Shown here one piece after another: positions 46,113 through 63,957 of a DNA stretch of 64,000 nt. Every line of letters begins with the position of its first letter. Within the stretch, counting starts at the first letter, position 1. The translations under genes were made by a program, and so were the position numbers. The notes beneath the pieces were generated by a model, which was given only the letters and a program-made list of their open reading frames with translations, did not search any database and was not told the DNA's origin. Source of the DNA: Luteimonas fraxinea (GTDB lineage Bacteria > Pseudomonadota > Gammaproteobacteria > Xanthomonadales > Xanthomonadaceae); the NCBI RefSeq assembly GCF_021233355.1, contig NZ_CP089507.1, positions 3,597,001 through 3,661,000 of the forward strand, written 5' to 3'.

Positions 46113-49100
46113 ATGAGCACGCCGGCCAACCAGCTTCCCGACCGTCAGCCCGAGTCTTCCCCGCTGCGCTTCGTCACCGCCGCCAGCCTGTTCGACGGGC
46201 ACGACGCGGCCATCAACATCATGCGGCGCCTCATCCAGTCGCAGGGCGCGGAGGTCATCCATCTGGGCCACAACCGCAGCGTCGAGGACGTGGTGCGCGC
46301 AGCGTTGCAGGAAGACGCCGACGGCATCGCGCTGTCGAGCTACCAAGGCGGGCATGTCGAGTACTTCAAGTACATGGTCGACATGCTGAAAGAACGCGGC
46401 GCCGGCCATATCCGCGTGTTCGGCGGCGGTGGCGGCACGATCACGCCCGAGGAAATCCGCGAGCTGCAGGGCTACGGCGTCGAGCGCATCTATCACCCGA
46501 ACGACGGCATGAAGATGGGCCTCGTCGAAATGATCGAGGACGTCGTCAACCGCGCCGCCACCGCGCGCGATGCCGCCGTCCGCGACGATTCCAGCCACGC
46601 GCCCGACATCGACGACGAGATCGGCCTGGGCCGCGTGCTCTCCTCGCTCGAAGACGGCAGCATCAGCGAGAACGAACTTGCGAAACTGCGCAAGACCTGG
46701 CAGCTGGCCGGCGGCAAGACGCCGGTCATCGGCATCACCGGCACCGGCGGCGCGGGCAAGTCCTCGGTCACCGATGAACTGCTCAACCGCTTCCTCGCCA
46801 GCTTCCCGCAGATGCGCATCGCGGTGATCTCGGTCGATCCCACGCGTCGCCGTAGCGGTGGCGCCTTGCTCGGCGACCGCATCCGCATGAACTCGCTGCG
46901 CAGCCATCGCGTCTACATGCGCTCGATGGCCACGCGTCGCCAGAACGTCGCCACCAATGCGGTGCTCAAGGACTGCATTGGTTTCCTCAAGAGCCTCGCC
47001 TACGACCTCGTCATCGTCGAAACCGCCGGTATCGGCCAGTCGGATTCGGAGATCGTCGATCTCGTCGACTTCCCGATGTACGTCATGACCAGCGACTACG
47101 GCGCGGCCAGCCAGCTCGAGAAGATCGACATGATCGATTACGCCGAGCTGATCGTGCTCAACAAGTACGACAAGCGCGGCGCCGAGGACGCGCTGCGCGA
47201 CATCCGCAAGCAGTGGAAGCGCAACCGCGTCGCGTTCCAGACCGCCGATGCCGACGTACCGGTGTATCCCACCATCGCCAGCCAGTTCAACGATCCCGGC
47301 GTGACCTGGATGTTCGACAACCTGTGCCGCCTGCTGCGCGAGAAGACCGGCGCCGGCAATGCGGGCCAGTGCAGCTTCCAGCCCGGCCTCGACACCTCGC
47401 TCAAGGAACCGCGCGCCACCGTGCTGATCCCCGGCGCGCGCGTGCGCTATCTGGCCGAGATCGCCGAATCCGGTCGCCGCATCAACAGCGACATCGAGCG
47501 CCAGGCCGAAGCCGCCGACCGCGCCCAGGCCATGTGGCAGGCGTTGCAGGAACTGGGCGACGCTCAACTGCCCAAGGCGCTCGACCTCTATCACTCCGAT
47601 GATCTGCAGCCCGCCCGCGATCCCAACACCTCTCCCTCCGGGAGCGGTCGCAGCGCAGCTGCGGGTGAGGGTGCCGTGGTCGTCGACAGCCCATCCCCCG
47701 CAGTCCCCGCCGACCCCGTCCAGGCCGGCACCGCGCTTGACCCCAACACTGCGCGCGAACTCAGCACCTCTCCCTCCGGGAGAGGTCGCACCGCAGGTGC
47801 GGGTGAGGGCGGGGCCGTCGCAGTCGACCGCTCCCTCCTCACCCTGCGCCAGCGCTACAACGACGCCATCCAGGCGCTCAGCAGCGAATCGCTGAAGCTC
47901 CTGCGCGAATGGCCGCAGCGTCTGAAGTCGATCACCGACGAATTCACCGAGTACCAGGTGCGCGACAAGTCGATCAAGGTCGACAACTACCGCGACTCGC
48001 TGAGCCACCAGAAGATCCCCAAGATCGCTGCGCCCACCTACAAGAGCTGGGGCGAGCTGCTGACCTTCCTGGGCAAGGAAAACCTGCCGGGCAGCTATCC
48101 CTACACCGGCGGCGTGTATCCGTACCGCCGCACCGGCGAAGACCCGATCCGCATGTTCGCGGGCGAAGGCACGCCCGAGCGCACCAACCGCCGCTTCCAT
48201 TACCTGTCCGTCGGTCAGCCGGCCGCGCGCCTGTCCACCGCCTTCGACAGCGTCACCCTGTACGGCGAAGACCCGGCGCCGCGCCCGGACATCTACGGCA
48301 AGATCGGCAACTCGGGCGTCAACATCCCCACGCTCGACGACATGAAGAAGCTCTATTCCGGCTTCGACCTGTGCGCGCCCACCACGTCGGTGTCGATGAC
48401 GATCAACGGCCCCGCGCCAATGATCCTGGCGATGTTCATGAACTGCGCCATCGACCAGCAGATCGAGAAGTACCTCAAGGCAGACGAGGCCCGCTGGCAG
48501 GATGCGGAAGCTAAACTCGCCAAACTCTTCGAAGGCCGCGAACGCCCGCGCTACCACGGCGAACTGCCGCCCACCAACGACGGCCTCGGCCTGAGCCTGC
48601 TGGGCGTCTCCGGCGACCAGATGGTGGACGCCGACACCTATGCCGACATCAAGGCCCGCACCCTCGCCACCGTGCGCGGCACCGTGCAGGCCGACATCCT
48701 GAAAGAGGACCAGGCCCAGAACACCTGCATCTTCAGCACCGAGTTCGCGCTGCGGATGATGGGCGACATCCAGCAGTACTTCGTGGATCGCAAGGTCCGC
48801 AACTTCTATTCGGTTTCCATTTCCGGCTATCACATCGCCGAAGCCGGCGCGAACCCGATCAGCCAGCTCGCCTTCACCCTGAGCAACGGCTTCACCATCG
48901 TCGAGTACTACCTTGCGCGCGGCATGCGCGTGGACGACTTCGCGCCCAACCTGTCGTTCTTTTTCTCCAACGGCATGGACCCCGAGTACACCGTCATCGG
49001 CCGCGTCGCCCGCCGCATCTGGGCACGCGCCATGCGCGAGCGCTACGGCGCCAACGAGCGCAGCCAGATGATGAAGTACCACATCCAGACCAGCGGCCGG

Positions 49101-49841
49101 TCCCTGCACGCGCAGGAGATCCAGTTCAACGACATCCGCACCACGCTGCAGGCGCTCTACGCCCTGTTCGACAACTGCAACAGCCTGCACACCAACGCCT
49201 ACGACGAAGCCATCACAACGCCCACGGAAGAAAGCGTGCGCAGAGCGGTGGCCATCCAGATGATCATCAACAAGGAAATGGGGCTCAACTTCATCGAGAA
49301 CCCCTGGCAAGGAAGCTTCGCCGTCGACTACCTCACCGACATCGTCGAAGAGGCCGTCTACAAGGAGTTCGAAGCCATCAGCGAGCGCGGCGGCGTGCTG
49401 GGCGCCATGGACACCATGTACCAGCGCGGCAAGATCCAGGAAGAGTCCATGTACTACGAGCACAAGAAGCACGACGGCTCGTTGCCCCTGGTGGGCGTGA
49501 ACATGTTCCTGCCCAAGGAACACGCCGGCGAGATCGCCACCGAGATCGAGCTGATCCGCAGCACCGAAGAAGAGAAGGGCCAGCAGATCGAGAACGTCCG
49601 CAACTGGCAGGAAGGTCGCAATGCGGTTGTACTTCCCCCTCTCCCTCAGGGAGAGGGCCGGGGTGAGGGCGCTCTTCGCGCCGATGCATCAGAAACCGAG
49701 AACCTCGCGTATCTTCAGAACGCGGCGCGCGAACGGCGCAATGTGTTCGAGGCGCTGATGGAGGCGGTGAAGACGCATAGCCTGGGGCAGATCAGCCACG
49801 CGTTGTACGACGTGGGTGGGGAGTATCGGCGCAACATGTAA
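46113..49841 (+). CDS. icmF: Fused isobutyryl-CoA mutase IcmF (methylmalonyl-CoA mutase family)
   Basis: 1242-aa adenosylcobalamin enzyme that interconverts isobutyryl-CoA and n-butyryl-CoA. Order: B12-binding domain with base-off His30 ([15 protein letters not shown]), MeaI-like G-protein chaperone (Walker [10 protein letters not shown] near residue 210; NKYD near 350), then the mutase TIM barrel (about 570-1240, [26 protein letters not shown]). ATG 46113 has GGAG 6 nt upstream and a TACAAT -10-like box at 46075-46080. Three stretches unlike the family (about residues 505-520, 551-566, 1175-1186) are encoded by dispersed repeats. No B12 riboswitch was recognised upstream. Confidence 0.95.
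47627..47672. repeat. Dispersed palindromic repeat inserted in icmF (copy 1)
   Basis: CACCTCTCCCTCC-GGGAGCGG...GGGTGAGGG element of the same family as 37573-37850. It reads through in frame as [16 protein letters not shown], in the linker between the G domain and the mutase domain. Confidence 0.85.
47765..47809. repeat. Dispersed palindromic repeat inserted in icmF (copy 2)
   Basis: Second copy 138 bp downstream in the same orientation and frame ([16 protein letters not shown]). Confidence 0.85.
49635..49669. repeat. Dispersed palindromic repeat inserted in icmF (copy 3)
   Basis: CCCTCTCCCTCAGGGAGAGGG plus GGGTGAGGG near the 3' end of icmF, in frame as [14 protein letters not shown] within a C-terminal surface region. 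Confidence 0.82.
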
Positions 49842-49904
49842 TACCGCAGCCTGGCTTTGGTGGGAGCCCGCTCTGAAGCTGGTTTTGCGGTACCATCGGG
49901 TCAT

Positions 49905-50100
49905 GTCAGCGACCAGGAGCATCTCCGGTCACCAGTCTGACCTCTAGGCCGTTTAATTAACTTTACATTTGCGCGGTCTGCATTTGGCAGGCCGCGCGAA
50001 CTGTAAAACAACAGCCTACTTATGTGTCTGCGGCGGCCCCGCATCATTGATCTTTAGTGCAAACGAGCGATATGACGTCGTATCCTTCGGTGTGCGCAAC
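49905..50100 (+). ncRNA. Candidate structured RNA (retron msr-msd) upstream of the RT gene
   Basis: Non-coding and rich in stem-loops. GTCAG/CTGAC (49905-49909 with 49937-49941) encloses a hairpin GACC-A-GGAG/CTCC-GGTC (49911-49930) next to an AGC trinucleotide. A long hairpin spans 49962-50007 (TTTAC, TTTGCGCGGTCTG pairing with CAGGCCGCGCGAA, then GTAAA). A 5-bp hairpin lies at 50029-50043 and a near-palindrome at 50069-50084. Retrons place their msr-msd RNA directly 5' of the RT. I could not find convincing a1/a2 inverted repeats, so the exact ends and the branching G are not assigned. Confidence 0.45.
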
Positions 50101-50118
50101 TGATTGGAGTGGGCAACT

Positions 50119-51069
50119 ATGAATAAGCAGCCATTGCGCGATCTCTTTGATGCGATGTATCACGGAAAACATCAGTTCGCAGACTTTATGAGTTGCGATG
50201 TGACTGCGCGCGCGACCGCATTTCAGCTTAACGAAAGAACTATGTATAGCCCCGATAAGCGCTTAAGGGCATACCACTCCTTTCTGACCTTGTTCCTCTT
50301 TGACTACTTCCCTGTGGAATCCGAGGTTGCGTTTGGATACAGGAAGGGTTCCAGTGCCTATGACGCTGTCTCTCCTCATGCTCGAAGCCGCCACTTTTTT
50401 CAGGCGGACATCACGAGCTTTTTTGGCAGTCTTGATTCAGGCGTGGTCGCCAATGTTATTGATGAACATAAAGAGCGGTCGCCGATCGAAGATGTTGAAA
50501 AATATACGGCGCGAGTACGAAGTTTAGTGCTTCTCAACGGGTCGCTTCCAATGGGATTCTCGACATCCCCGGTGTTGAGTAACGCATGCCTATACAAGTT
50601 CGACCGCGCACTCCGAGAGAGGTGTCAGACGGCTGGGTTGCATTTCACTCGATACGCAGATGACCTCATTATTTCTTCGGGTGACCTCGAATTGACACGC
50701 TCCGCTAAGGCGATTGTGGAGGAGGTCTTGCTGCACGAATTCGACGGCAAGCTGCAGCTCAATGCTGAAAAAACGAAGCTGACGAGCATTGGTCGTAAGG
50801 TAAAGATTCTTGGTATGGTAATTCTGCCGAATGGACGAATCACTGTTGACCAAAGGACTAAAGATCGAATTGAGGTGCTTATCCATTTCTATCGAGTCGA
50901 TCAAGAGCGCTTTCTCGCACTGGTAAAGAATGACCGTGCTGGCGGGTTAGAGCATCTCGCGGGTCTGGTTAGCTACGTAAATACTGTGGATCAGGAGTAT
51001 CTGGGGAAACTTCGTCGAAAGTTTGGAGTGACAATAGTTGACAGTCTCCTGCACAAGACTATTCTGTGA
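50119..51069 (+). CDS. Retron-like reverse transcriptase
   Basis: A 316-aa RNA-directed DNA polymerase. Motifs: RT2-like AFGYRKGSSAYDAV, catalytic Asp97 in FFQADITSFFGSL (motif A), LPMGFSTSPVLSN (motif B, 143-155), catalytic YADD at 179-182 (motif C), LQLNAEKTKLTS (motif D), and KILGMVILPNGRI. The retron NAxxH signature appears as AVSPH and the VTG signature as ILG, so it is a divergent member. ATG 50119 has GGAG 9 nt upstream. A/T-rich, unlike its neighbours upstream. It overlaps the ATPase gene (GTGA), so the two form one unit. Non-retron defence RTs remain an alternative. Confidence 0.85.
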   Translation: MNKQPLRDLFDAMYHGKHQFADFMSCDVTARATAFQLNERTMYSPDKRLRAYHSFLTLFLFDYFPVESEVAFGYRKGSSAYDAVSPHARSRHFFQADITSFFGSLDSGVVANVIDEHKERSPIEDVEKYTARVRSLVLLNGSLPMGFSTSPVLSNACLYKFDRALRERCQTAGLHFTRYADDLIISSGDLELTRSAKAIVEEVLLHEFDGKLQLNAEKTKLTSIGRKVKILGMVILPNGRITVDQRTKDRIEVLIHFYRVDQERFLALVKNDRAGGLEHLAGLVSYVNTVDQEYLGKLRRKFGVTIVDSLLHKTIL

Positions 51070-52427
51070 CCGTTTTTCGCGTCCATATTGAGAATGTTCA
51101 ACATATCTCGAATCTCACCGTTGAACTCGATCTATCGAAAAACGGAATAATATGCGTTGCCGGCAAGAATGGGGCAGGGAAGACGACTCTCATAAAAGCG
51201 CTGAAGAATATCGCCTCTGCGGATACCTTTATGCGCACCTCCGCTCCAACTATCTTCAATGAAGAAAGTCGAATTTCGTATAACTGGAATAATGAGCAGT
51301 TCGATTTTGTTTACGATCCCTCGCTCCGCACCCTCGATTGCCGCATGCAAATTCCGGACTCTCTGCGCGGACTGGTGGTCGCGGAGTTGCCTGTCCCGCA
51401 CGGGGAGCGCTTCAACTACTTCCGCTCCATCAGTGATGCCGATCTCTCTATCCGGCGTGCCATTGTGCTCGGTGAGTACACCGTACCCAATGAGTTGATT
51501 TCGTTTCTTGAGGCGATATACGGTACGGGCAAGTTCGAACGCGTCGTGCAAGTGACGCTAGGTAGAAATCAGTACTTTTGCACGCTTTTAGGAGGCGGGA
51601 GGTATATCAGGGAAGATTACTTTAGCTCCGGCGAGTATTTCCTTATAAGTCTCTACAAGCGTTTGCGAAGTGAGTGCAGGCTGATTGCTATTGATGAGAT
51701 CGATATTTCTCTAGACCCTGCTGCGCAAGTGCGACTCGTTGGTGAACTACGCAGGATGTGCTCCCGCTATTCTCGAAACGTGCTGTTCACTACGCACTCT
51801 TTAGCGATGCTAAAGACTGTGCTCCCTGGCGAACTGCGGTACATGGAGCAACAAGGGGACGAAGTCGTACTGATTCCCCTCTCCTACAGCTTCATAAAAA
51901 CTATCTTGTTCGGGTTCCGCGGGTGGGATAGATATATCCTTACTGAGGACGATGTGCTGCAGAGGTTTATCGAGTATGTGATTTCAAGGTTCTGTGGCCC
52001 CAGCTTTTTCTCGTGCAAGGTTATCTATATTGGTGGCAGTCAAAACGTTATCGATCTCATGAGGCGAAACGCGGTCGAGGGTTTTCTTAGCGATGCTGCG
52101 GCTGTGATTTCGGTGTTGGACGGTGACCAGCGCGACACACGCGCGGGGCGCAGCCGGAATACCCTCTGCATTCCGGTGGATAGTGTCGAGAAAGCGCTTC
52201 ATCGGTATTATCAAGACTCCGCCTTCGAGCCTCGTCTGGATGCGTCATTTGACCACGCTAGACCGAAAGTCTTATTTTCGGAAATGATGCGACAGCGCGT
52301 TTTGTCGGAGCGCGAAATATTCGATGTCATTTGTTGCAACGAGGCCGAGGCGATCGCTGGGTTTGCAGCTACGTTGTCTGTCTTTCTAGCTTCGGAGCCA
52401 CAGCTTGTCACAAGTGTAGATATGTAG
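51066..52427 (+). CDS. OLD-like ABC ATPase with C-terminal TOPRIM-like domain
   Basis: 453 aa from GTG 51066, overlapping the RT stop. ABC/SMC-type ATPase: Walker A GKNGAGKTT (33-41), signature-like YFSSGEYFLISLYK (about 185-198), Walker B LIAIDEIDISLDP (206-218), H-loop FTTHSLAML (His244). From about residue 290 a TOPRIM-like nuclease region: acidic ILTEDDVLQRF, KVIYIGGSQNVIDLM, and the D-x-D of VISVLDGDQRD (352-354). This matches OLD-family effectors, which are paired with RTs in type I retrons. Probable effector triggered through the RT-made DNA. Confidence 0.82.
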   Translation: MTVFRVHIENVQHISNLTVELDLSKNGIICVAGKNGAGKTTLIKALKNIASADTFMRTSAPTIFNEESRISYNWNNEQFDFVYDPSLRTLDCRMQIPDSLRGLVVAELPVPHGERFNYFRSISDADLSIRRAIVLGEYTVPNELISFLEAIYGTGKFERVVQVTLGRNQYFCTLLGGGRYIREDYFSSGEYFLISLYKRLRSECRLIAIDEIDISLDPAAQVRLVGELRRMCSRYSRNVLFTTHSLAMLKTVLPGELRYMEQQGDEVVLIPLSYSFIKTILFGFRGWDRYILTEDDVLQRFIEYVISRFCGPSFFSCKVIYIGGSQNVIDLMRRNAVEGFLSDAAAVISVLDGDQRDTRAGRSRNTLCIPVDSVEKALHRYYQDSAFEPRLDASFDHARPKVLFSEMMRQRVLSEREIFDVICCNEAEAIAGFAATLSVFLASEPQLVTSVDM

Positions 52428-52513
52428 ACCGATCGCCCATTAACTTGCGTAGTCCTGCCTAACGCGAATAACGGGGTCGGTTTGGAGTACCCCTGGTTTC
52501 TCGGACAATGAAC

Positions 52514-52597
52514 CTAAGGCACATACCTTAGGCGATTGAACTGCTTTTCGTATTGATGGGGCGATTGGTAACCCAGCGCAGAGTGCATGCTCCAGGT
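52514..52597 (-). pseudogene. C-terminal remnant of an IS3-family transposase
   Basis: On the minus strand the codons from 52597 to the TAG at 52514 read WSMHSALGYQSPHQYEKQF then NRLRYVP and stop, the hallmark C-terminus of IS3 OrfB integrases (HSALGYxSPxxYE). Only about 27 codons remain; the sequence upstream (above 52597) is unrelated. TTTGGAGTACCCCTGG near 52480 could be the matching IS end. Confidence 0.75.
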
Positions 52598-52936
52598 TCA
52601 CTTATCTAGGATGACGCTGCGCGAGGGGTGACGTAGGCCAGTCAGGGGGACGGCATGCGACAGGGATTGAAGCGGGGGGCTCAGCGTCGAGAGGATGCGC
52701 TGACAGGGGGGGGGGGGCGGTGGGATCGGTTGGAGAGAGCGCCTTAATGGGTGAGGCTGTCTTCCATGCCTGGGCCTTAGCGATGTGAATCGAGGTCGCG
52801 GCGGAAGCCGAGCGCGATATGAATGCTCCTGCGTAGAGGTGCATGCCCATCGCGACAGGACGGCGCAAGCACAGGGCCGACACACCGGCGCCAATGTGGT
52901 TTCCAACCCTATTTCCCGTTGGAAGGGCTCCGGCGG
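52598..52936. other. Unassigned stretch with a 12-G homopolymer
   Basis: Lies between the IS3 remnant and the nuclease operon. Minus-strand frames of up to about 119 codons cross it but match nothing I know and contain a proline run from the G/C tract. A run of 12 G is at 52706-52717. GC-rich unlike the flanking genes; probably a recombination scar. Confidence 0.35.
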
Positions 52937-53737
52937 TCACCTCACTTCCAATAGCTCGCACAACACTACTCGCACTAGATCTAGGACCCGGAGAGCCTCA
53001 TCTCTGGAGGTACTGGTGTGGGTAGAGACACTTGACCGAGTATATACGGATCGAACAAATGTCCCCAATGCCTCTTCTACTGCGGTCGCAGCATTCTCAG
53101 TTGGTTCGCTAATGCTCTTGGAAACACGCCTGTTCTTCAGGACATAGCGTACTTTCTGTTTCATGGTAGGGCCGCGTGCGTCTGGCTCCATTTTAAAGCC
53201 AGGCGCAACTTTCACATCTTCATCGGGCGCGAGCTGGTCAAGCACCTTCCGTAGCGCTTCTCTCAAGTCTGTCGCCGGTCCGCGCCAAGACAATCGATTC
53301 TCGGTGCGGAGATCGATGAGTGCTTGTTCATATGACATCGCCGCCGTGGGCAGTAACGACCGAAGCGTTGCCACTAGGCGGCCATCCGCAGCGCTTAGTT
53401 CGATTACGTTGGTCCGGACTGGGGCTGCAACTAACTTCGTATCTAAAAGCACTAAGTGCTTCTTCAGCGATCTAAAAAGCTCCTTGTACTTGCTTGTAGA
53501 TGATGCCTTGTGCGTTAGTTGCAAAAGCAGCTGCATCATGCGGTCGACCTCTGCGACGTGGGTGCCATCACCTGTGTTGTCTTCGATCATTGGTCGGACG
53601 TCGGCAAAGTACCCCTCGATAAGATTACGAATTCGCTCGCGCGATACCTTTGACTGAACCTGGGGGCCTGCAACTGAGTTGAGCAACTTTCTTTCGGCTT
53701 CAATCTGAGCCAACAATGCTGTCACGTGGGATGGCAT
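52937..53737 (-). CDS. Probable pPIWI-associating nuclease-like protein
   Basis: A 266-aa protein. An N-terminal helical half (MPSHVTALLAQIEAERKLL...) is followed by the block SYEQALIDLRTENRLSWRGP, TDLREALRKVLDQLAPDEDV, PGFKMEPDARGPTMKQKVRY and ERS-like SVSTHTSTSRDEALRVLDLV. From memory this resembles domains annotated as predicted pPIWI-associating nuclease; I could not verify it by search. ATG 53737 overlaps the upstream stop (TAATG), so it is coupled to the 171-aa partner. The operon lies in a low-GC island beside an RT-ATPase pair, so a defence role is likely. No PIWI gene is in view. Confidence 0.6.
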   Translation of the reverse strand: MPSHVTALLAQIEAERKLLNSVAGPQVQSKVSRERIRNLIEGYFADVRPMIEDNTGDGTHVAEVDRMMQLLLQLTHKASSTSKYKELFRSLKKHLVLLDTKLVAAPVRTNVIELSAADGRLVATLRSLLPTAAMSYEQALIDLRTENRLSWRGPATDLREALRKVLDQLAPDEDVKVAPGFKMEPDARGPTMKQKVRYVLKNRRVSKSISEPTENAATAVEEALGTFVRSVYTRSSVSTHTSTSRDEALRVLDLVRVVLCELLEVR

Positions 53738-54252
53738 TAGCCTTCGCCAGGCAGGTTGTGTTCCACCAAGTTGTACCCAACCGCGTTCAACTTGTACTCG
53801 CCTCGACCGGTCGACTCAAAGTATCCGGCAGCTTTCGCGTCGACAAGCAACTGCGCCATTCTCGTTGGGAGCTTGTACCCCGCTTGCTTAAAGTACTTTT
53901 CGAGGTCCGTTGTGGAGATGCTGTCCTTGCGTTCCTCATCACCTGCAAGCTCTTGTAAGTAGAAGGCTGTTACGCACGCCATTTCTCGCGCGGTTCGAGG
54001 CTTCTTCTGCTCCTTGAACGAGCGGATATCCACCCGCGACCTGCGCTCGATTGGCTGCTCCAAGCTCAGCTGCGGGGCGGGGGTTTCGTGCGGTAGGGGA
54101 TCGCTCACAAAGAGCGCGCCGGACACTGGGGCTAGGTTTAGCTGCCGACAGACTGCGATTATCGCGGTCTCCCTCGATGCCTCATCTAGAGGCTCCAGGG
54201 CTGCGAGCAAGATGTCGATCGCCTTACCAAGAGTGTGTTTTTCTGAACTCAT
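53737..54252 (-). CDS. Small partner of the pPIWI-associating nuclease-like protein
   Basis: 171 aa from ATG 54252 (GGAG 7 nt upstream). A helical N-terminus (GKAIDILLAALEPLDEASRE), a variable linker, then a winged-helix-like C-terminal domain: SFKEQKKPRTAREMACVTAF, ISTTDLEKYFKQAGYKLP, MAQLLVDAKAAGYFESTGRG and EYKLNAVGYNLVEHNLP. Proteins with this GYF...GRGxYKLNxVGYNLV end are common next to such nucleases. I infer DNA/RNA binding or regulation of the nuclease. Coupled by TAATG overlap. Confidence 0.6.
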   Translation of the reverse strand: MSSEKHTLGKAIDILLAALEPLDEASRETAIIAVCRQLNLAPVSGALFVSDPLPHETPAPQLSLEQPIERRSRVDIRSFKEQKKPRTAREMACVTAFYLQELAGDEERKDSISTTDLEKYFKQAGYKLPTRMAQLLVDAKAAGYFESTGRGEYKLNAVGYNLVEHNLPGEG

Positions 54253-54302
54253 GATTATCTCCAAAAAATAGAGAAGAGCCTCCTGTCCGCTTGGGCGAGT
54301 GG

Positions 54303-54851
54303 TTAGCTTGTGGTCCAGATTAGCCCGAGTTTATTGATGAACTCAGCGCCCACAAGCTGAGGATGGTAGGAAAGGTTATGCTTGAGCTCATCGGCGTGTC
54401 CCGACAAGACCATGCCTTCCCCCTCCGTCCAGCCGTTTATCAAAGCCATGCTGGTTGGAAGAGAAAAATCAAGTATCTCCATGCTTGGAAGCGTAAGCCA
54501 CGCATGGGCTTCAAACGTACGTGTGCCAAGCCCGTTGGCGGCCAGTTCCGAAAAGTAGTTATCGAGAGTCTTGAATCGAAAAGTGCTGCCCGATTTGATG
54601 TAGCCGATCGTGAAAGCTGGCTGCACGCCGAACACTTTCTCGAGCACGGGAACTAGGCGGAGGTGGATGCTTAAGCATTGTGCAACAAGGTCGGCAGGAG
54701 TTAGCTCTCCGAGCACATCACGCACCATATAAGGGATTGCCTCTAGGTTTTTGGGCACCAGAAGTCGCTCTTGCGCGAAAGTCATGTCGGGCTTTACACC
54801 GAGCTGCTGGGAGTAGGCGACTGCCTGTTGGAACTCGCTGAGATATGTCAT
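54303..54851 (-). CDS. Unknown protein, first gene of the nuclease operon
   Basis: A 182-aa soluble protein from ATG 54851, 50 nt upstream of the 171-aa gene on the same strand. I do not recognise it. Features: helical N-terminus, IGYIKSGSTFRFKTLDNYFS, and FEAHAWLTLPSMEILDFSLP. The last has the H...D spacing seen in transglutaminase/NlpC-like thiol peptidases (HAW-L...G-xIxD), but no obvious catalytic cysteine precedes it except Cys in VAQCLSIHLRL. It may be a sensor or an inactive fold. Codon use is as in the neighbouring island genes. Confidence 0.55.
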   Translation of the reverse strand: MTYLSEFQQAVAYSQQLGVKPDMTFAQERLLVPKNLEAIPYMVRDVLGELTPADLVAQCLSIHLRLVPVLEKVFGVQPAFTIGYIKSGSTFRFKTLDNYFSELAANGLGTRTFEAHAWLTLPSMEILDFSLPTSMALINGWTEGEGMVLSGHADELKHNLSYHPQLVGAEFINKLGLIWTTS

Positions 54852-55535
54852 AGCAAGCTAACCCCTTATGTTTCAAGTTTTTCGACCCTAGGTAACGAGC
54901 CCGGGGTGTGCGCCTCATAACGCCTCGGTGTCAGTAGCACCGTGTCCCCCCAGCGAGCCACCCGCTAGAGCCCGCGTCCTGCGCTTGGACAGTTGGACAA
55001 GGCAACTCTAGTAGAGATAAGCGTGGGCTTAGGCGCGATGCACTGAACAAAGCTAACCATATCGGATAAACGGGATGCCGGCGGTAGGCATCGTAGGCAA
55101 GGCGGCATTGGATGTCGCAATCAATGGCGTGACCGAAGGACACGGTTCGGCGACGGCGAGACTGGTATTGGCAGGCTCAAGGTCGTTGCCGATGTGCGCG
55201 TCTTGATCGACGCTATAGGGTAGACACAACAAAGCGCTGCTGGAGATTGGCCTGCTCCCACGTTTCGACCGCCTCTCGCCGCCTCATCAGCGGCACACGT
55301 CTCACGTTGTTGCGTGGTCTTGACGGTACCGCTTGACCCGTAGCAGACTCGATCCCAAGGAGCGTCGAAACTCCTCACGTAGCGGTCCCCACCTCCGTCA
55401 ATCTGGTGGGTTTTTTGTGCCCGTGCGCTTGCGGGCATGGACCGACGCGATGTCTGCGTCGGGAGGGCGGCTAATACAACACCCTTCGGGGAAATACGCC
55501 CGCCGGCTACGTGCGGTTTCGAACCTCCCGACTTC
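54852..55535. other. Long intergenic region between the two islands
   Basis: Nearly 700 nt without a convincing gene; frames present have no family signature. It contains one strong plus-strand terminator (55388-55416) with no recognised gene in front of it and a CCCG/CGGG hairpin just after it (about 55421-55436). GC content rises from the low-GC island toward the GC-rich effector island here, so this is likely a junction. Confidence 0.4.
55388..55416 (+). terminator. Orphan intrinsic terminator
   Basis: CCCACC/GGTGGG stem (55388-55393 with 55405-55410) followed by six T. No protein gene precedes it on the plus strand for more than 2.9 kb, so it may end a small RNA. Confidence 0.7.
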
Positions 55536-55841
55536 CCGTCCTCCGTCTGGCGGACGGGCACTTCATGGATCGAGGAGATGACGATGTCGAAGTTCGATAC
55601 GGAAGATCGCGGCGCGCTGGGCTATTTCCTGACCGAGGACGGCCAGTCCCGGCTGCGCAATCTGCACCAGCACATTGTGTTCCTGTCACGCCTGGCAGAG
55701 CCGCGCGTGGACGAGGAAGAGGACGGGCCTGAAATCGACCACCCCGCGCTGGCCGGCTGCATGGACCTGCTGGCCGAGCAAGTGCAGTTGGTGCTGGATA
55801 CGGTGGCCTGGCCGGCGCGCCTGCAGGCGAAGGGCAAGCCG
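55536..55841. repeat. About 305-bp direct repeat, copy 1
   Basis: Covers the upstream hairpin (CCGTCC/GGACGG, 55536-55557), ribosome site, start and first 85 or so codons of the XAC0095-like gene. It matches 63202-63507 with scattered single-base changes, 7666 bp away, same orientation. Confidence 0.88.
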
Positions 55842-56252
55842 CTGAAGGTAGGGCCGCAGGCCGACGATGACGAAGCCGAGGACGCGGATGAGGCCGATGG
55901 CGACGCTGCGCCCGTGGCAGCTTCCGCTGACGATAACTACGATTTCGGCATGACGATGGATCAGCTGGACGAGCTGCACCGCCTGCTCGATCTGCTGCGC
56001 GCCCAGGGCGATCTGATGATGGCCACCGGCGAAGGCAATGTCGCCAAGGAGACCATCATCGTGACGGGCTCGGCCATCTTCGATGGCGCCGAGGCCGTGG
56101 ACGCCATCATCGACCAGGTCGAAACGCAGATCCTCGACGACGACGACCCGCGTGCCAAGCCCCGGCGTGTGCGTGAAATGCCGCCGGCGTATGGCGTGCA
56201 CGCCGTCGCGGCCACTGAGCCGAAGGCTCAGCACCGCGCAGAGCTGCACTGA
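55584..56252 (+). CDS. XAC0095-like protein, copy 1
   Basis: 222 aa from ATG 55584 (GAGGAG about 6 nt upstream; the ATG at 55578 abuts that site). The N-terminal conserved block MSKFDTEDRGALGYFLTEDG, QSRLRNLHQHIVFLSRLAEP and the helix CMDLLAEQVQLVLDTVAWPA resemble the small XAC0095 family of Xanthomonas as I remember it. An acidic linker (residues about 100-125) leads to a second helical domain (MTMDQLDELHRLLDLLRAQG). No signal peptide or catalytic motif. It is followed by a 13-bp hairpin. Function unknown; a paralogue lies at 63250-63957. Confidence 0.72.
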   Translation: MSKFDTEDRGALGYFLTEDGQSRLRNLHQHIVFLSRLAEPRVDEEEDGPEIDHPALAGCMDLLAEQVQLVLDTVAWPARLQAKGKPLKVGPQADDDEAEDADEADGDAAPVAASADDNYDFGMTMDQLDELHRLLDLLRAQGDLMMATGEGNVAKETIIVTGSAIFDGAEAVDAIIDQVETQILDDDDPRAKPRRVREMPPAYGVHAVAATEPKAQHRAELH

Positions 56253-63201: not shown

Positions 63202-63507
63202 CCGTCCTCCGTCTGGCGGACGGGCACTTCATGGATCGAGGAGATGACGATGTCGAAGTTCGAGACGGAAGATCGCGGCGCGCTGGGCTATTTCCTGAGC
63301 GAGGACGGCCAGTCCCGGTTGCGCAAGCTGCACCAGCACATCGAGTTCCTGTCACGCCTGGCAGAGCCGCGCGTGGACGAGGAAGAGGACGGGCCTGAAA
63401 TCGACCACCCCGCGTTGGCCGGCTGCATGGACCTGCTGGCCGAGCAGGTGCAACTGGTGCTCGATGCGGTGGCTTGGCCGGCACGCCTTCAGGCGAAGGG
63501 CAAGCGG
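63202..63507. repeat. About 305-bp direct repeat, copy 2
   Basis: Same as 55536-55841: hairpin 63202-63223, ribosome site and the first 85 or so codons. Similarity stops at the linker of the protein (after AKGK) and resumes just after the stop codon (ACTGAGCCCAACGC). Confidence 0.88.
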
Positions 63508-63957
63508 GGCGATGACCAGGACGAGGCCGACGACGACCACGACGACCACGACGACGACGACAGCGACGAAGACGAAGCTGAGGATGTGGATGTGGATGCC
63601 TCGGACGATGTCGAAGAGGCAGTCGCGACGGAACCGGGTGGGGCGAAGTATCTGGTCGGCATGACGCTGCGTCAGATCGATGAAGCGACCAACCTGCTCG
63701 ACATGCTGGTTGCCCAAGGCGATCTGCTGCACTTGAGCGGCACTTCGGGCACCGAATTCACGGACAACACGATTGCAATCGCTGGCGCGTCCATCTTCGA
63801 TAGTGCGCAGGTGCTGCAGGCACTCCACCGGCAGGTGATTTCGCAGTACCTCACTGATCGGCCGGCCGCGCGACCGCGGGTGCGGGAGACGCCGCCGCTG
63901 TACAACGTTCACGTGACTGCAACTGCCAAGCCGCAGGGCGAACACCGCGCCCACTAG
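63250..63957 (+). CDS. XAC0095-like protein, copy 2
   Basis: 235 aa from ATG 63250 (GAGGAG upstream). Residues 1 to about 85 are almost identical to copy 1 (MSKFETEDRGALGYFLSEDG). The linker is longer and extremely acidic (a DDDHDDHDDDDSDEDE stretch from GAC repeats). The C-terminal domain has diverged (MTLRQIDEATNLLDMLVAQG) but keeps the same pattern and the ending RPRVRETPPLYNVHV. The pattern of a conserved N-terminus and varied C-terminus suggests a common docking domain with a specific partner domain. Confidence 0.72.
   Translation: MSKFETEDRGALGYFLSEDGQSRLRKLHQHIEFLSRLAEPRVDEEEDGPEIDHPALAGCMDLLAEQVQLVLDAVAWPARLQAKGKRGDDQDEADDDHDDHDDDDSDEDEAEDVDVDASDDVEEAVATEPGGAKYLVGMTLRQIDEATNLLDMLVAQGDLLHLSGTSGTEFTDNTIAIAGASIFDSAQVLQALHRQVISQYLTDRPAARPRVRETPPLYNVHVTATAKPQGEHRAH

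Follow-up and report, generated by a model that had tools for sequence, protein, structure and literature searches.

A probable type I-B1 retron-like anti-phage module with a structured upstream RNA in the chromosome of Luteimonas fraxinea

INTRODUCTION

Retrons that act through an OLD nuclease are divided by gene order: OLD downstream of the reverse transcriptase (RT) gene is class 3B, type I-B1, and OLD upstream is class 3A, type I-B2 (passages of the review PMC10568477, after Mestre et al. 2020). The best characterized class 3 OLD system is Retron-Eco8 (PMC10568477), the first for which a retron-linked (class 3) OLD structure was solved; its holocomplex cuts double-stranded DNA, whereas OLD alone does not, and a phage single-stranded DNA-binding protein (SSB) is the trigger (passages of PMC12887533). 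Retron RNAs lie between a1/a2 repeats, with initiation at an adjacent guanosine (passages of PMC8989520 and PMC12887533), and two RT motifs have been described, NAxxH in 14 of 16 validated retron RTs and VTG at the start of region Y in 14 verified RTs (passages of PMC6868368). Here, we analyze a 64,000-nucleotide (nt) stretch of the Luteimonas fraxinea chromosome (NZ_CP089507.1, positions 3,597,001 to 3,661,000; “the window”, to which all coordinates refer) that holds a type I-B RT gene, an OLD-type ATPase-TOPRIM gene overlapping it by 4 nt and, upstream of both, a family-specific RNA with its own promoter-like boxes. We consider it probable that these elements together form an anti-phage module of the retron-like type I-B1 (class 3B OLD), encoded in the chromosome.

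RESULTS

The two proteins match a described type I-B1 layout

The RT gene runs from an ATG at 50119 to a stop at 51067-51069 (316 amino acids) and shares four nucleotides (GTGA) with the ATPase gene, which starts with the GTG at 51066 and stops at 52425-52427 (453 amino acids); this is the overlap of a YADD RT with an ABC ATPase that an earlier note on the same DNA had reported. The RT matches the PADLOC model RT_I-B (PDLC02937) over residues 1-314 of 316 (402 bits, E 3.8e-121), well ahead of RT_II-A as the next family (168 bits). The ATPase matches ATPase-Toprim_I-B (PDLC02914) over its full length (588 bits, E 3.3e-177; next family 57 bits). Since RT followed by OLD is the described I-B1 or class 3B layout (PMC10568477), from which we saw no difference in protein layout, and since both PADLOC I-B matches are full length, the module is, judged by its proteins, of type I-B1 (class 3B OLD). 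Therefore, the type I retron-like plan that the earlier note proposed (RT plus ATPase-TOPRIM with a structured RNA upstream) is upheld, and its suggestion of a new subtype is not.

The same arrangement recurs among related loci, of which we collected 101 with the window included, from genome contigs (74 loci), IMG/VR (21), and plasmids (12 records, five loci used). An RT frame lies directly upstream of the ATPase in 97 of the 101, three of those RTs being broken, so the pairing is not a product of chance. The gap between the two genes is -17 to +7 nt in 94 loci and exactly -4 in 26. The four loci outside the 97 are one cut by the contig start (L065) and three without an RT (L094, L104, and L105). 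Among 398 genomes sampled across the phylum, the ATPase model matches nine at E 1e-30 (the window genome included) and four at E 1e-130 or below, and within the window's genus a close RT match is found in 1 of 37 genomes, its own, with distant RTs in five others. E. coli genomes (searched as DNA) and phage records (searched as protein) gave no match. The PDLC02938 and Drt3a reference families also had no match in 150 genomes each, but their controls were silent too.

Elsewhere in the family, I-B1 modules are plasmid-borne (L026, L028, and L030): one neighbors mer genes in Alteromonas, one sits on a Klebsiella IncFIB plasmid, and one is carried by a mobilizable plasmid of 7 kb in Serratia. In a Pseudomonas, a C4 antisense RNA (RF01695; L042, 3297-3384, minus strand), an RNA typical of P1/P4-like phages, is found near the I-B1 module.

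The RT is predicted to have a retron-like fold

The AlphaFold2 (AF2) model of the RT is very confident (predicted local distance difference test [pLDDT], 96.6), and its predicted fold is retron-like: the nearest folds are those of type I-A retron RTs, the best Protein Data Bank (PDB) match is the Retron-Eco7 RT (template modelling [TM] score, 0.81), and the first 18 PDB matches are all retron RTs (TM to query, 0.69-0.82), with group II RTs at ranks 19-23 (0.58-0.64). We then placed the family in a tree of 46 RTs, made up of 21 of the 59 rows of our protein alignments (the window and 58 of 80 full-length loci) and 25 reference RTs, with no diversity-generating retroelement (DGR) and no defense-associated RT (DRT) or abortive infection (Abi) RTs among them. 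The 21 I-B1 rows form a clade of their own (support 98/98), as do the six group II RTs (100/99) and the 19 other retron-type rows (98/93). A group II intron RT is thereby rejected, both by the separate clade and by the lower fold ranks. DGR and DRT/Abi RTs are rejected by their fold ranks below the retrons, the tree containing neither kind. Of the two groupings that the earlier note had named as refuting its reading, the one with group II enzymes is thus not seen in the tree, and DGR enzymes are not the nearest by fold. DRT profiles stayed far under their cut-offs (Drt3a, 45.5 bits against 200; Drt2, 37.2 bits against 390).

If group II RTs are taken as the outgroup, the I-B1 RTs branch outside the other sampled retrons. 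We treat this placement only as a lead because of the long group II branch (2.86), the long branches of two retron rows, and the odd composition of 11 rows. Of the 59 family RTs, 44 have YSDD as their catalytic box and 15 have YADD.

The effector is an OLD-class ATPase with conserved TOPRIM residues

The AF2 model of the ATPase is confident (pLDDT 92.6), and its best Foldseek matches are the OLD nuclease 6p74 and GajA, followed by PtuA, RecN, and SMC heads. The top three TM values are low (0.36-0.41), hinged domains being perhaps responsible, so Foldseek alone does not prove a TOPRIM domain. The acidic motifs that the earlier note had pointed out in the C-terminus are strictly conserved: E294, D352, D354, and E375 are invariant in all 59 aligned family ATPases, the window included. 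In the AF2 model, this region runs strand, E294, helix, strand, helix, strand, D352-G-D354, an order that fits the description of the Eco8 TOPRIM domain in passages of PMC12887533. In addition, a local profile-profile alignment (hhalign) of the 59-sequence family with eight OLD proteins, taken from loci matching Pfam OLD-like_TOPRIM, extends over residues 172-355 (probability 97.8, E 9.4e-13); in it, E294 and the DxD motif fall on their OLD counterparts.

The closest described systems share parts of this architecture. Retron-Eco8 (type I-B2, class 3A) likewise joins a retron RT to an OLD ATPase-TOPRIM in which a glutamate follows the first TOPRIM strand and a DxD motif is present, but its OLD gene lies upstream of the RT, its OLD protein is larger, its RNA has IRa1/IRa2 repeats and a branching G, and its sequence similarity to the window protein is low (NF038234, 26 bits; cut-off 250). 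The type I-A retrons Ec78/Eco7 and Ec83 (RT, PtuA, and PtuB) have the nearest RT fold, are near the top by sequence, and also pair the RT with an ABC ATPase. They differ in their HNH nuclease PtuB, whereas in the window the TOPRIM lies inside the ATPase and no HNH Pfam match was found in the three neighboring genes scanned; a Septu/PtuAB or type I-A retron identity is rejected for want of this HNH partner. The two type I-A RTs that we checked carry both NAxxH and VTG, unlike the window family. Gabija GajA and the OLD nuclease 6p74 are the top structural matches of the ATPase, and neither system is known to include an RT or an RNA. GajA works with a helicase-like partner, GajB (passages of PMC10568477).

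A family-specific structured RNA precedes the RT gene

The non-coding stretch 5' of the RT gene measures 277 nt (49842-50118) and is hairpin-rich, as described in the earlier note; positions 49900-50030 fold better than all 200 shuffles (z -5.7). A motif search found an element shared by 81 loci, in which it lies 5' of the RT at a distance of 56 to 507 nt from the start codon. We aligned 64 of these loci, after removal of those more than 90% identical, and the alignment shows a helix P1, a bulged short-loop hairpin P2, a CUCUA linker, and, at the end, a long hairpin (Table 1). Of the 23 pairs called by RNAalifold, 16 have both sides changed, a count that does not exceed the shuffles (mean 14.9; equally high in 129 of 500). 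The other four covariation measures do exceed them: 94.2% of cells are paired against 78.7%, and the covariation score is 0.493 against 0.204 (slid controls, 0.05-0.13), although testing a structure on the alignment from which it was derived favors the structure. By helix, P1 has 5/5 pairs changed on both sides and 96.3% of cells paired, P2 has all cells paired and 7/8 pairs that never vary, and P3/P4 has 10/10 counted pairs changed on both sides. Together, folding against shuffles and covariation lead us to reject a chance origin. Moreover, in the terminal hairpin, G-U pairs outnumber A-C mismatches 65 to 14 across the 64 loci; therefore, the RNA strand appears to be under selection.

The ends of the RNA are suggested by conservation. 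Across the 64 loci, the promoter consensus is a TTG at -35 and TAnAnT at -12 to -7 from the near-invariant A of AUGCC/AUACC, with almost no conservation further upstream, and a promoter score of at least 8 is reached in 46/64 loci, compared with 6.5% of shuffles (family mean 8.09). These boxes place the +1 about two bases before P1, at 49903; the earlier note's start at 49905 is 2 nt inside this inferred start. At the other end, conservation drops just after the GTA of the terminal hairpin.

TABLE 1 Features of the module (window coordinates)
Feature	Position	Strand	Details
Promoter-like boxes of the RNA	49868..49896	+	-10 TACCAT 49891-49896 (4/6); -35 CCGCTC (1/6), poor
Structured non-coding RNA, candidate msr-msd equivalent	49903..50007	+	Inferred +1 A to end of terminal hairpin; covariance model
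Helix P1 (GTCAGC and facing 3' arm) around bulged hairpin P2 49911-49930 (GACCAGGAGCATCTCCGGTC)	49905..49941	+	
Single-stranded CCTCTA linker	49941..49946	+	Invariant or near-invariant columns in 64 loci
Long terminal hairpin P3/P4 (TTTAC ... GTAAA), candidate reverse-transcribed part	49962..50007	+	
Reverse transcriptase, type I-B	50119..51069	+	YADD 50653-50664; PADLOC RT_I-B; own clade; AF2 model
OLD-type ABC ATPase with C-terminal TOPRIM	51066..52427	+	Walker A 51162-51185; DEID 51693-51704; PADLOC ATPase-Toprim_I-B
TOPRIM core	51930..52211	+	E294 (51945-51947) after strand 289-293; DGD 352-354 (52119-52127) after strand 347-351; E375

We built a covariance model from the 64 aligned loci and searched 100 of the 101 loci; L027, which is related to L026 and belongs to the same plasmid group, was set aside. 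There is one match each in 95 of these 100, including 14 loci not recovered by the motif search, and none in 37 control loci, which represent other retron-type RTs, group II RTs, and other OLDs and ATPases. In the window, itself one of the training rows, the model matches 49899-50021 (95.7 bits, E 3.3e-27), and this is the sole match in the 4.0-Mb genome. A scan of IMG/VR by DNA pattern, without reference to proteins, picked out 11 contigs with the RNA motif, each of them already known from its ATPase. One Streptococcus-labelled metagenome-assembled genome (L100) has the RT and ATPase with no credible RNA match even when filters are off (best 5.0 bits).

The I-B1 module thus has an associated non-coding RNA, which we do not equate with any published I-B1 RNA. 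Rfam did not match it in the window or in five relatives, which gave only a tRNA and the C4 RNA elsewhere. PADLOC holds msr-msd models of its own (passages of PMC9252829), and the passages of the review PMC10568477 contain no description of an I-B1 RNA, a comparison that did not extend to the 2020 classification. Consequently, the novelty of the I-B1 RNA is unproven.

The RNA is inverted in one clade

In 80 of the 95 RNA-positive loci, the RNA lies upstream of the RT on the RT strand, and in the other 15 it is on the opposite strand. In an RT tree of 86 of these loci (a quick method with the Shimodaira-Hasegawa-like approximate likelihood ratio test [SH-aLRT] as the only support; L087, L097, L111, L113, L114, L119, L122, L124, and L126, all forward, were left out), the 15 inverted loci fall on one side of one branch, consistent with one change (SH-aLRT 95). 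They include Comamonadaceae, Alcaligenaceae, and others, and because they are divergent among themselves, the inversion is probably old and tolerated. The alignment holds 14 inverted loci. In 12 of them the better fold is that of the sense strand, whereas their G-U pairs stand to A-C mismatches at 9 to 4, which is not significant (p 0.27).

This inversion makes the RNA look like an independent gene rather than a leader, and suggests that it could possibly be supplied in trans. It also bears on the idea that the RNA regulates the operon, as a leader or antisense RNA, instead of serving as RT template. The same-strand position upstream of the RT in most loci would suit a regulator, but the structure is kept in the inverted clade, the motif of the motif-positive loci can be as near as 56 nt or as far as 507 nt from the RT start, and the RNA strictly co-occurs with the I-B1 proteins in what was searched; we therefore regard a regulatory role as improbable.

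Canonical retron features are weighed against a different mode of priming

Several observations weigh against reading this locus as a retron-like module with an OLD-TOPRIM effector. For the effector, none of the 25 families that Pfam lists for the window protein or for the 59 members is a TOPRIM family, a PDB sequence search returns none either (best E 1.7 for the C-terminal part alone), and 453 amino acids compare with 679 positions in the Eco8-family model. For the RT, NAxxH (region X) occurs in 0/59 family RTs, with H in all and A at the N position in 56, and VTG in 0/59, its place being taken by LLG (36), ILG (22), or HLG (1); the score against the NCBIfam model of the retron St85 RT is 172 bits, below its cut-off of 235, and the nearest solved RTs by sequence belong to PtuA-type retrons, with the Eco8 RT further off. 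For the RNA, a1/a2 repeats were not detected, and the window copy has a promoter score of only 5 with a poor -35 box; a promoter scan of the window likewise returned nothing at the RNA.

These points differ in their reach. The presence of a TOPRIM domain in the ATPase C-terminus is supported by the alignment and the residues and not by Pfam, so the earlier note's proposal stands on the former. Likewise, the divergent RT motifs noted earlier are real, but they are common to all 59 family members tested and not special to the window copy. Nor are NAxxH and VTG universal, since a plain pattern search of the 19 other retron-type RTs finds NAxxH in 12, VTG in 7, and neither in 7.

The a1/a2 result depends on the control. 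An earlier test gave z values of 2.8 and 2.5 in two of three comparisons, which fell to 0.21 and 0.02 once composition was controlled (third comparison, -0.07). Long-span helices pass z 2 in 4/64 I-B1 loci (mean z 0.1), compared with 6/14 loci of known retron type (mean z 1.57), in which 12-13 bp a1/a2 pairs appear; the span limits of the two sets differed (110-230 and 80-230). Because only 6 of these 14 known cases pass, the sensitivity of the test per locus is limited, and the apparent lack of a1/a2 repeats in the family is a computational result to be read within that limit.

It is therefore quite possible, though our expectation runs somewhat against it, that the module is a canonical retron whose a1/a2 repeats are short, imperfect, or beyond the searched ranges, and whose DNA synthesis is primed by the usual 2'-OH of a guanosine. 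The published type name, the retron RT fold, and the modest detection rate of the test in known retrons all agree with this. Against it stand the scarcity of passing I-B1 loci with a composition-controlled mean z near 0, and promoter boxes that leave about 2 nt between the +1 and P1.

A different priming mechanism in a sister lineage of retrons, such as extension of the RNA itself at the 3' end of its terminal hairpin or protein priming of the kind used by some DRTs, seems to us rather doubtful. It would account for the missing RT motifs, the undetected repeats, the fading of conservation past GTA, and the clade of I-B1 RTs outside the other sampled retrons, but it relies on rooting by the long group II branch and must contend with the 7/19 motif-less retron-type RTs and the retron-like fold. 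In its boldest form, which we think unlikely to hold as a whole, I-B1 systems would not be canonical retrons at all, and would instead be a sister lineage with an NAxxH/VTG-less RT and a compact, a1/a2-less RNA that starts at the first helix. Transcription of this RNA could run away from the RT gene, and its priming would be of another kind (e.g., by the 3' end of the terminal hairpin, with the strongly conserved CUCUA linker as the copied part). If the RNA does lack a1/a2 repeats, the rule for how retron RTs start DNA synthesis would need an exception.

Finally, a decayed, non-working module is very improbable: the window -35 box is poor and some relatives are broken (e.g., L027, L087, L097, and L111), but both window frames are open with the invariant residues kept, and the RNA scores as high as reported above.

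Predicted mode of action

For the type I-B1 retron-like module that we favor, the anti-phage role is likely to follow Retron-Eco8, in that an RT-RNA-cDNA complex would control an OLD nuclease that aborts infection. According to this scheme, the RT would bind the P1/P2 part of the RNA and copy the terminal hairpin, perhaps with the linker, into DNA. The resulting RT-RNA-DNA complex would assemble with the OLD protein, and a phage product (phage SSB in Retron-Eco8) would switch on DNA cleavage by the TOPRIM domain, which in turn would kill or arrest the infected cell. Because the I-B1 effector is smaller, the Eco8 mechanism may not carry over in full and the trigger may differ. OLD nucleases recur in several defense systems, and the I-B1 family offers a compact effector together with a small RNA whose ends and helices are predicted.

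The module lies in a variable defense hotspot behind icmF

The left neighbor of the module is icmF (NF045497, 1645.9 bits). We compared the DNA downstream of icmF in 20 related genomes (17 of the same genus and 3 of the same order) and found that, in all 20, homology to the window stops within 4 bases of the icmF stop codon and other genes follow; 49846-52591 has no further match in these 20 regions. On the right, homology resumes in G022 at about 55330 and, in G003 and G016, close to that position. The first kilobase has a GC content of 0.59 or less in 18/20 regions, and PADLOC families match at E 1e-10 or better, some weakly or partially, in 10 of 17 regions scanned over selected genes (all but L171, L172, and L174). 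The cargo across these regions (L157-L176) includes a UG5-nitrilase DRT (G009), a type III-A retron RT (G038), and PtuA-like and HerA genes, and 4 of 15 RT places in the genus lie within 12 kb behind icmF (G000, G009, G038, and G048). Thus, the module sits in a variable defense hotspot spanning 49842-55330, a location that fits acquisition by transfer. The earlier note had read the A/T-rich composition in the same way. GC is 0.49 for 50001-52000 against 0.63-0.70 in the preceding 2-kb bins, and the module was probably transferred.

The next gene after the module (52937-53737, minus strand) is convergent with it and gives a match (E 2.4e-13) to PF18165, the family of a predicted pPIWI-associating nuclease; the genes at 53737-54264 and 54303-54851, both also on the minus strand and convergent, have no Pfam match. 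Between the module and these genes lies an element of about 143 bp (52593-52735) that is single in the window genome and present in two to six copies in the hotspot of five close relatives (L157, L158, L159, L160, and L163). Genome-wide, it occurs in 7 of 10 relatives at 20 places, all in the hotspot except a contig end in G020. The element shows no unusual DNA folding and may be a mobile-element remnant or a cassette boundary.

Further along the window, paralogous genes at 55437-56252 and 63244-63957 (MTMSKF[DE]TEDRGALGYF...) lie on either side of a block with a GH25 lysozyme-like gene and several genes that Pfam does not match. At icmF itself, one relative (L173, from G048) carries the icmF 3' tail twice, near 113-249 and 1617-1749, about 1.5 kb apart, a pattern expected of an integration that carries its own gene end. 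Within the window icmF, repeats resembling repetitive extragenic palindromic (REP) elements (CTTCCCCCTCTCCCTCAGGGAGAGGGCCGGGGTGAGGG) were seen by eye, in frame, at 49630-49690 and about 47590-47900; similar inserts near the icmF 3' end occur in 4 of the 20 relatives (G022, G009, G023, and G014), and a different insert is present in G012.

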